Part shown: positions 4,016 through 7,000 of the stretch, one piece after another
Layout: the number at the start of each line of letters is the position of its first letter
Numbering within the stretch: the first letter of the stretch is position 1
NCBI RefSeq assembly: GCF_964019385.1
Contig: NC_088655.1
Coordinates: forward strand, 16,367,148-16,431,147
Length of the DNA stretch: 64,000 nucleotides
From: Sycon ciliatum
Lineage: Eukaryota > Porifera > Calcarea > Leucosolenida > Sycettidae
Reading direction: 5' to 3'
The notes under the pieces: generated by a model
Seen by the model: only the letters and a program-made list of their open reading frames with translations
What the model was told of the DNA's origin: nothing
Database searches by the model: none
Translations under genes and position numbers: made by a program

Positions 4016-7000
4016 GTAAGTGATTTGAAGGGCGTGTGTATGCAGCCTTATCCTACCGCCTATTTCCACTCAAGTTGTCATGTAAAGAGAAAGCAAAATC
4101 CAATGCCGGCTACTCGCGGCAAAAATTGAAGTGAAAAATATCACAGGACAAACCTAAAAACATGTGAGTGTCTCGGTTCTTGTCTGGCTACGTAAACGAC
4201 CATGCCAACACAAGAATCACCTGTCAAACCGTCCTCATCATGACAATGGCTCTGCGTAAAAATCATTCTGAAAGTATGGAATGGTATGCGGTGGTAATGT
4301 TTTGTATTGTATTGTATTTGAACAAACGGCGAGGAGACAGCAATTTGATAGCCGCAATCAGTAATACAAGGTGGATCGACATTTGTGTACACTTTATTCG
4401 TGTAATGTAAAACTGTGGAGACAATGTGCAATAAAACGATGAAAATGTGAAGAAATGATTCCTGATGAGTGTTGTACGAAAACTTGTTTGAATCCTAATT
4501 ACCTACACCATCTCCTCACATTTTCATCGTTTTATTGCACATCGTCTCCACAGTTTTACATTACATGAATAATGTGTACACAAATGTCGATCCAGCTTGT
4601 ATTACTGATTGTGGTTATCAAATTGTATTGTATTTTATTAATTTACTTGGTCATTCCCAACAGACCCTAAGGTCTTATTGCAGAGTGCCCAAGATTAATG
4701 AAATTGTTAAGCTCCTGGCGAAATGAATTGGGGATATGATTTGTGCGAAGGGATTCGGGAAGCGCATTAAAGCGGTCAGCACCAAGGAATGAAATAGATC
4801 GGTATCCAGCTTGAGCTTGCACAGTGGGTAAGGAAAGGGGAAAATTAACTTGGCCGCCTGTTACTCTATCTGTGTGAGCGCAGTCACGGCGAAGGGAGAA
4901 CATGTCAGAGAGGAGTTAACTGCAGTAGTGAGCATTCCCATTCGGCAGTTCAATAATACTACAGTACTTCTCCGGTACTATGCAGCTGACTGCAAACCCT
5001 AGTTAGCTAAACAAATTATATATATTGCTGTTTGCTTTATGCAGAGCTCACTGACTTGTCAGTTTGAGCACTCTGGCAAGGTACGTTCGGGCCTGATTGG
5101 AAATTTTTATTTCCATTGCTATCAGGTTCGGCCTCATTTCCTCTGTGCTGCGCTGACGAGTCAACAAAGGACGAAACAGTTCTGTCCGCAGATTGAGTAT
5201 ATATATAATATATATACTCAATCTGCGGACAGCATGCTGTTTCGTTCTTTTTGAACTCATCAGCGCAGCACAGAGGAAATGAGGCCGAACCTGATAGCAA
5301 TGGAAATAAAAATTTCCAATCAGGCCCGAACATACCTTGCCAGAGTGCTCAAACTGACAAGTCAGTGAGCTCTGCATAACGCAAACAGCAAAGGCACTAC
5401 CCCACGCAAGAGTGCTCAACTGCTACAAGAGCAGGAGCGAAATACTCAATCTGCGGACAGCATGCTGTTTCGTTCTTTTTGAACTCATCAGCGCAGCACA
5501 GAGGAAATGAGGCCGAACCTGATAGCAATGGAAATAAAAATTTCCAATCAGGCCCGAACATACCTTGCCAGAGTGCTCAAACTGACAAGTCAGTGAGCTC
5601 TGCATAACGCAAACAGCAAAGGCACTACCCCACGCAAGAGTGCTCAACTGCTACAAGAGCAGGAGCGAAATACTCAATCTGCGGACAGCATGCTGTTTCG
5701 TTCTTTTTGAACTCATCAGCGCAGCACAGAGGAAATGAGGCCGAACCTGATAGCAATGGAAATAAAAATTTCCAATCAGGCCCGAACGTACCTTGCCAGA
5801 GTGCTCAAACTGACAAGTCAGTGAGCTCTGCATAACGCAAACAGCAACGGCACTACCCCACGCAAGAGTGCTCAACTGCTACAAGAGCAGGAGCGAAATA
5901 CTCAATCTGCGGACAGCATGCTGTTTCGTTCTTTTTGAACTCATCAGCGCAGCACAGAGGAAATGAGGCCGAACCTGATAGTAATGGAAATAAAAATTTC
6001 CAATCAGGCCCGAACGTACCTTGCCAGAGTGCTCAAACTGACAAGTCAGTGAGCTCTGCATAACGCAAACAGCAAAGGCACTACCCCACGCAAGAGTGCT
6101 CAACTGCTACAAGAGCAGGAGCGAAATACTCAATCTGCGGACAGCATGCTGTTTCGTTCTTTTTGAACTCATCAGCGCAGCACAGAGGAAATGAGGCCGA
6201 ACCTGATAGCAATGGAAATAAAAATTTCCAATCAGGCCCGAACGTACCTTGCCAGAGTGCTCAAACTGACAAGTCAGTGAGCTCTGCATAACGCAAACAG
6301 CAAAGGCACTACCCCACGCAAGAGTGCTCAACTGCTACAAGAGCAGGAGCGAAATACTCAATCTGCGGACAGCATGCTGTTTCGTTCTTTTTGAACTCAT
6401 CAGCGCAGCACAGAGGAAATGAGGCCGAACCTGATAGTAATGGAAATAAAAATTTCCAATCAGGCCCGAACGTACCTTGCCAGAGTGCTCAAACTGACAA
6501 GTCAGTGAGCTCTGCATATTTATATATACACACACAACAACAAGGTTGTCAATTTCATAGTACTAAAAGCTTTTCACCCATTTTCATCAGTAGTTACATG
6601 GGAATGAGCAAGAACGAAAACGGAGCCAGAATTTATACTGGGGGTAGAGAATCAGCAAGAATATTCTTACGCGCCTCAAGTTCACACTACACTACCATAA
6701 GAATGTATGGAGCAGTGGAAAAATTCGGGAAACAACACATGAAGGGAATGCAGTACCAGAACAAACACGTGATAAAGATACAGCTTCTGCACAACTTGAA
6801 TCTGCACCGCGTATTATCACAAAATTGCTGTGGAAAGGGCAAAATTGCATTGCCTTCCGCAAAAAGATTAAAGCTGCAATTTTGAACTGCTATCCTACAG
6901 TATCCCCATTGTAATTTATACAACCAGGCCCGCATTCAGGTCTATCGCGAAGGATGTTTCACCAACTCTTGAAAATAGTAATTTTATTCATAAGTATACG

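Follow-up and report, generated by a model that had tools for sequence, protein, structure and literature searches.

A young hammerhead retrozyme-like array in Sycon ciliatum with a common 3' end in TA tracts beside a probable Penelope-like remnant

A tandem array of 228-bp units, an inverted partial copy of the unit and a short distant fragment of it lie in the window (the whole 64-kb stretch of Sycon ciliatum DNA that was analysed), and the three insertions end at one and the same position downstream of a hammerhead cleavage site, against TA-rich DNA (Table 1). Taken as a whole, the locus is probably best read as a young, non-autonomous hammerhead retroelement whose copying would have been primed at TA tracts from a fixed start by a Penelope-like enzyme, the array having arisen from a multimeric template or by later expansion.

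Table 1. Coordinates of the array, its further copies, the adjoining TA runs and the probable Penelope-like remnant
Feature	Position	Strand	Remarks
Alternating TA run	5017-5025		5' end of inverted copy
Inverted partial copy of unit	5025-5213	plus	5025-5200 = 176 nt, then TA tract; 5'-truncated
Seventh hammerhead, diverged	5148-5191	plus	predicted cleavage after 5186
TA tract	5198-5216		lies where inverted copy and array face each other with their 3' ends; an AA step divides it into two alternating runs
Tandem retrozyme-like array	5214-6518	minus	3' end at 5214, 5'-truncated end at 6518
Hammerhead 1	5268-5223	minus	predicted cleavage between 5228 and 5227; descriptor and Rfam alignment
Hammerhead 2	5496-5451	minus	predicted cleavage between 5456 and 5455; descriptor and Rfam alignment
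Hammerhead 3	5724-5679	minus	predicted cleavage between 5684 and 5683; descriptor and Rfam alignment
Hammerhead 4	5952-5907	minus	predicted cleavage between 5912 and 5911; descriptor and Rfam alignment
Hammerhead 5	6180-6135	minus	predicted cleavage between 6140 and 6139; descriptor and Rfam alignment
Hammerhead 6	6408-6363	minus	predicted cleavage between 6368 and 6367; descriptor and Rfam alignment
Alternating TA run	6521-6528		between array 5' end and left end of Penelope-like remnant
Probable Penelope-like remnant	6522-7582	plus	inverted arms of ~256 bp around the endonuclease-like frame
GIY-YIG-like endonuclease frame, presumed Penelope type	6872-7321	plus	one in-frame stop at 7220-7222
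Alternating TA run	7574-7582		right end of Penelope-like remnant
Severely 5'-truncated copy	27148-27169	plus	last ~22 nt of unit, spans cleavage site, in TA tract

Tandem-repeat analysis gives the array a period of 228, 5.7 copies and 99% matches. An earlier note, made from the sequence alone, had described six identical type-I hammerheads on its minus strand, one per unit and exactly 228 bp apart, and a descriptor built from general hammerhead rules and run over both strands recovers all six with the same stems, core and GUC site. Each consists of stem I (CUGCG/CGCAG), the core CUGAUGA, stem II (GUUC/GAAC with loop AAAAA), GAA and stem III (ACAGC/GCUGU with a 2-nt loop), with cleavage predicted after GUC; by eye, stem I may be an interrupted one. 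The cleavage and ligation point that the note had placed at 5456/5455 is correct, as hammerhead 2 cuts after 5456. Chance origin of these motifs is rejected, 60 dinucleotide shuffles of the window having yielded one motif in total on both strands. The interval given for the array, 5040 to 6520, needs correction at both ends: 5040-5213 belongs to the inverted partial copy, which begins at 5025, and the last unit ends at 6518.

The covariance-model search that the earlier note had suggested finds the right structure at scores short of the family threshold: RF02275 (Hammerhead_HH9) aligns over all six motifs at 28.8-30.5 bits (E 3.4e-5 to 1.2e-4; gathering 52), these sub-threshold scores coming from an E-value listing of region 4900-6700. 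At the gathering threshold, the sole Rfam match in the whole window is a tRNA. Membership of RF02275 or RF00163 is therefore rejected, all hammerhead scores lying below gathering, and so are microRNA matches at 5118-5298 and nearby, all likewise below gathering in Rfam, which arise because the inverted copy and the array form a palindrome. No stop-to-stop frame longer than 75 aa occurs inside the array, so the unit is without reverse transcriptase or endonuclease. The 228-bp unit had no match in plasmid and phage collections, and a 31-nt unit pattern in genome contigs and a 29-nt pattern in viral contigs gave 0 matches; these collections hold prokaryote and virus DNA and say little about animals.

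The inverted copy carries a seventh hammerhead on the plus strand, overlooked in the earlier note, and its 3' end at 5200 lies 14 nt past the cleavage site, the same 3' end as that of the array. Compared with every array unit, this hammerhead has six substituted bases and a 2-nt deletion, confined to a stretch of 27 nt, while the rest of the aligned copy has one differing site; seven of the eight differences thus fall within the 46-nt motif of 178 aligned nt (hypergeometric p 3.4e-4). The core reads CUGACGA, changed at the free position of CUGANGA, a U-A pair of stem II is exchanged for C-G and its outer C-G pair is lost to the loop, and stem III is shortened, with the motif still intact (RF00163 Hammerhead_1, 22.2 bits, E 0.024, gathering 34). 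When the array motif was mutated at random under the same load, only 33 of 20,000 variants retained it. Because the changes cluster in the ribozyme and yet the motif is retained, the sequence indicates that the ribozyme would have been under selection, or that a whole module would have been exchanged between subfamilies.

The 27-kb fragment matches the unit at 20 of 20 positions; in shuffles, hits averaged 0.01 even when as many as three mismatches were tolerated. Array, inverted copy and fragment all have their 3' end at the same point, 14 nt beyond the cleavage site, as judged from three insertions that all lie within this one 64-kb window. At each of them the cleavage site is separated from TA-rich DNA by exactly CGCAGATTGAGTAT (14 nt, of which the last three letters could belong to the target instead). 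At the junctions inside the array the same position runs on as GAGTATTTCG without a TA tract; therefore, the TA tract is target and lies outside the unit. No two of the three insertions have the same 5' end, as in variable truncation. All three 3' ends include sequence from before as well as after the cut, which means that the template was not a cleaved linear monomer and leaves uncleaved multimers or re-ligated circles as candidates.

A minus-strand transcript of the array would cut itself once per 228 nt and release 228-nt RNAs, which might be ligated into circles. Such a circle folds at -73.1 kcal/mol, compared with -62.8 +/- 4.5 for 200 shuffles (z -2.3), and the plus strand of the unit is nearly as structured (z -1.8). 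In the model circle the ribozyme is hidden, the pairing probabilities being 0 for stem I, 0.11-0.12 for stem II and ~0 for stem III, a condition reported for plant retrozymes, unlike most animal ones (PMC7229834). In isolation, the hammerhead of the 75-nt array motif is at -10.2 versus a minimum of -18.0 kcal/mol, and that of the inverted copy at -6.2 versus -14.8 kcal/mol.

As the template of the array, a single monomeric circle is disfavoured by variants common to units: A119 is found in units 1 and 2, and T85 in units 4 and 6. Five changes falling on three site/base states were reproduced in 9 of 200,000 simulations of independent errors, and in 1.1% when hot spots were allowed. The variants therefore suggest a multimeric template or later unequal exchange: in place of one monomeric circle, the source of the units would have been a multimeric transcript, or their number would have grown later. 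The same variants, which independent errors rarely give, would also suit satellite DNA grown by unequal exchange around a fossil ribozyme with no present mobility, as would the presence of only 5.7 units in a single place. We hold this to be quite improbable, since an inverted copy and a distant fragment have the same 3' end in TA-rich DNA and the ribozyme was retained through divergence; unequal exchange could nonetheless have lengthened an inserted array.

The TA-rich targets can be counted. Seven alternating T/A runs of at least 8 nt occur in the 64 kb, and six of them lie at ends of the copies or of the Penelope-like remnant, although adjoining insertions have TA runs in common and are not independent, and two of the six runs are one split tract. 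With other cut-offs, runs at element ends number 6 of 28 (6 nt), 6 of 13 (7 nt) and 5 of 6 (9 nt). Seven of the eight listed element ends are within 12 nt of a run, the list of ends and the 12-nt limit having been picked after inspection of the sequence; the eighth, on the 3' side of the 27-kb fragment, is separated by 21 nt from the closest run of 8 nt, with only a 5-nt run adjoining it. Among 20,000 random rigid placements, none reached seven ends and four reached six, and when the main locus alone (six ends) was shifted by more than 50 nt, no placement exceeded two. The seventh run (30737-30745) has no recognised element, and the seven other hammerhead-like loci of the window are at least 555 nt from such runs. 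TA runs flank the array and the inverted copy on both sides and could be either target-site duplications or the microsatellite itself; in the non-LTR retrozyme class, target-site duplications, when present, are described as longer than 4 bp (PMC7229834). TA-tract ends of animal retrozymes were not reported in titles or abstracts, among the matches listed.

The window has other hammerhead-like motifs and repeats. A relaxed descriptor gives 15 hammerhead-like starts in the 64 kb, of which the array family accounts for seven, compared with 0.13 per shuffled window, and such ribozymes may be very abundant in the genome. A complete isolated type-I hammerhead at 8874-8920 (+), with 6 bp in stem I and 4 bp in stem II, scores 25.4 bits with Hammerhead_1 (E 1.2e-4; gathering 34); it lies ~680 nt downstream of, and sense to, an exon-like frame and is a possible intronic ribozyme. 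That frame (~7912-8193, with splice-like borders by eye) had no Pfam match, and a PDB search gave nothing better than E 0.1. The motif at 37946-37991 (+) occupies the loop of a large foldback repeat whose span, 37734-38169, is 87% self-inverted; a second copy at 20507 (20501-20546, +) retains the core and has no pair at the foot of stem II. Motifs at 45237 (-) and 60059 (+), between whose flanks no similarity was detected, both begin stem II, by eye, with a basal U-U mismatch, after which the inner pairs differ between the two; axolotl HHR_Amex2 is described with such a mismatch (PMC7229834). The 45237 motif had no Rfam match, and that at 60059 is inside a 131-bp palindrome. Another motif, at 56741-56781 (-), has a GUAC-type short stem III (Hammerhead_1 17.9 bits, gathering 34) and directly adjoins a repeat recurring many times in the window, and a weak one at 4457-4494 (+) is found where an inverted repeat (4341-4457 / 4509-4625, 93%) has its 51-nt loop. 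Further repeats include a BEL/Pao-type retrotransposon at 38476-45097 (-) with a 1908-aa polyprotein frame (38939-44665), flanked by direct repeats that are 98.9% identical over at least ~263 bp and recur at 37053-37316; a short interspersed repeat (e.g. 8513-8690) with over a dozen full or partial copies, ~74-95% identical; and 26 copies of the 10-mer ACCTAACAGC at 13530-13792 (99% matches).

Directly beside the array, in the same TA tract, sits a probable Penelope-like remnant, whose arms (6522-6777 and 7328-7582) are 97-98% identical. The 3' ends of the arms point outward into TA tracts, which is what two-strand extension would leave. The frame between the arms reads ...IHKYTCRCERTYVGETCQRFSERIKQHIP...LEALYIRSLRPELCRQKK... 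and is one that we take, from the pattern of its motifs, to be a Penelope-type GIY-YIG endonuclease, no profile having hit. Searches of Pfam, NCBIfam, PHROGs and PDB sequences gave no GIY-YIG match (the best Pfam match being a sub-threshold EGF model), a single-sequence structure model was poor (pLDDT 41.6), and among viral contigs 12 candidate stretches gave 0 confirmed, with no match in plasmids. A hammerhead-like relic at 6590 (minus) within the remnant, with stem II of 1 bp and stem III of 2 bp, is too weak to count. The adjacency, the common TA tract and the presence of hammerhead-like motifs in both (that at 6590 very weak) could suggest that the array is a tandem pseudo-LTR of this neighbour and not a separate element. 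Such an origin is very improbable, given that comparison of the window with itself found no sequence similarity between unit and remnant, and that helix III, reported to be usually absent from Penelope-like ribozymes (PMC7761336), is present in that of the array.

With the array as a separate element, an RNA spanning the cleavage site would have served as template for reverse transcription at nicked TA-microsatellite DNA. Synthesis would have begun at a single fixed position inside the RNA, which the 3' junctions place ~14 nt downstream of the cut, and would have left the variable 5' truncations that are observed. The enzyme would most likely have come from a Penelope-like element with its GIY-YIG endonuclease and reverse transcriptase, a role to which the neighbouring remnant may attest. 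Purified Penelope-like protein in vitro cuts AT-rich DNA on both strands and begins reverse transcription at fixed internal RNA sites (PMC11167929), and the insertion ends found here resemble the outcome of such initiation and cutting. In the assays of that report, the start is 111-118 nt into the ORF, about 90 nt past the ribozyme cut, and is not homologous to the target, and ribozyme mutants insert unchanged, cleavage being unneeded (PMC11167929). The features of Penelope-like mobilisation found here are the same 14-nt tail and TA-rich flanks at three insertions; the start lies at another distance from the ribozyme than in the published element.

LINEs also use AT-rich targets, which counts against a Penelope-only reading. 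The same retrozyme might have been moved to AT-rich sites by a LINE-type (non-LTR) enzyme through target-primed reverse transcription; its Penelope-like neighbour would then be a coincidence of a common TA hotspot. LINE-like 15-bp target duplications are described at Nematostella hammerhead repeats (PMC4918200), and a reverse-transcriptase-like frame is present at 11877-12674 (RVT_1 27.8 bits, curated cut-off 29.6). We nevertheless regard a LINE mover as unlikely, for the targets are alternating TA runs common to the Penelope-like remnant with its outward 3' arm ends, and no LINE 3' end with the sequence of the unit came up incidentally in these analyses.

Returning to a Penelope-like mover, we extend the proposal only tentatively, at somewhat less than even chances, to animal retrozymes in general: Penelope-like enzymes would move them by copying cut-spanning RNA from a start ~14 nt past the cut, primed at TA tracts that take both kinds of element in turn. 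Penelope-like elements have been put forward as strong candidate movers on the basis of common type-I hammerheads, tandem occurrence and co-existence (PMC7229834). They are the suspected, though unproven, movers of animal retrozymes. The signature at the insertion ends, a fixed start past the ribozyme and a TA target, lends itself to counts in any genome and to assay with a purified Penelope-like protein. If the proposal is true, the locus offers junction-level evidence for a link based on co-occurrence in the papers examined, and a copied RNA that spans the cut site narrows what the ribozyme is for.

The element is young, and the animal 'non-LTR retrozyme' class is the best class available for the array, judging by its sequence features. 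The array is placed there because it has type-I hammerheads with helix III, a 228-bp tandem unit of 47.8% GC (window 45.4%), near-identical units and further copies (the inverted one and that at 27 kb), and because no direct-repeat family besides the units themselves occurs in 4000-9000. All seven motifs have the full catalytic core and three stems, with a helix III of 4-5 bp. The period of 228 bp in 5.7 copies falls within the tandem-repeat range of the class (~150-450 bp), and the GC content is below the <50% given in the text and above the <45% given in the figure legend of the same source (PMC7229834). The label of retrozyme-like array given in the earlier note stands as to class, on the type-I motif, tandem unit and further copies. 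The release of 228-nt RNAs predicted there is not borne out by the model circle, which hides the ribozyme, and a single monomeric circle as template is disfavoured by the variants common to units.

Among known systems, the metazoan non-LTR retrozymes of Acropora, Mytilus and Ambystoma are alike in having one type-I hammerhead per tandem unit, with units of ~170-400 nt, several per locus, and coral units of 220-240 bp (PMC7229834). The array differs from them in the fixed 3' end 14 nt past cleavage and the TA tracts defined here, and in a model circle that hides the ribozyme, whereas most of those described leave it free (PMC7229834). Plant LTR retrozymes are likewise non-autonomous, with a hammerhead-bounded monomer and a circle expected to hide the ribozyme, but have type III ribozymes, LTRs with PBS and PPT, and lengths of 600-800 nt (PMC4918200); a plant-type LTR retrozyme is rejected for the array on its type I motifs and 228-bp unit. 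RF02275 (Hammerhead_HH9) and RF00163 (Hammerhead_1) align end to end in core, stem order and A-rich loop 2, with motif scores that are sub-gathering (28.8-30.5 vs 52; 22.2 vs 34). Penelope-like elements with hammerheads, such as Poseidon of Anolis, share AT-rich targets, tandem arrangement and a fixed internal 3' end downstream of the ribozyme (PMC11167929). In contrast to these, the unit has no reverse transcriptase or endonuclease, its ribozyme has a helix III, and its start site is 14 nt past the cut, compared with about 90 nt in the Penelope-like element (PMC11167929). The element belongs to a known class, and its insertion ends are what is new.
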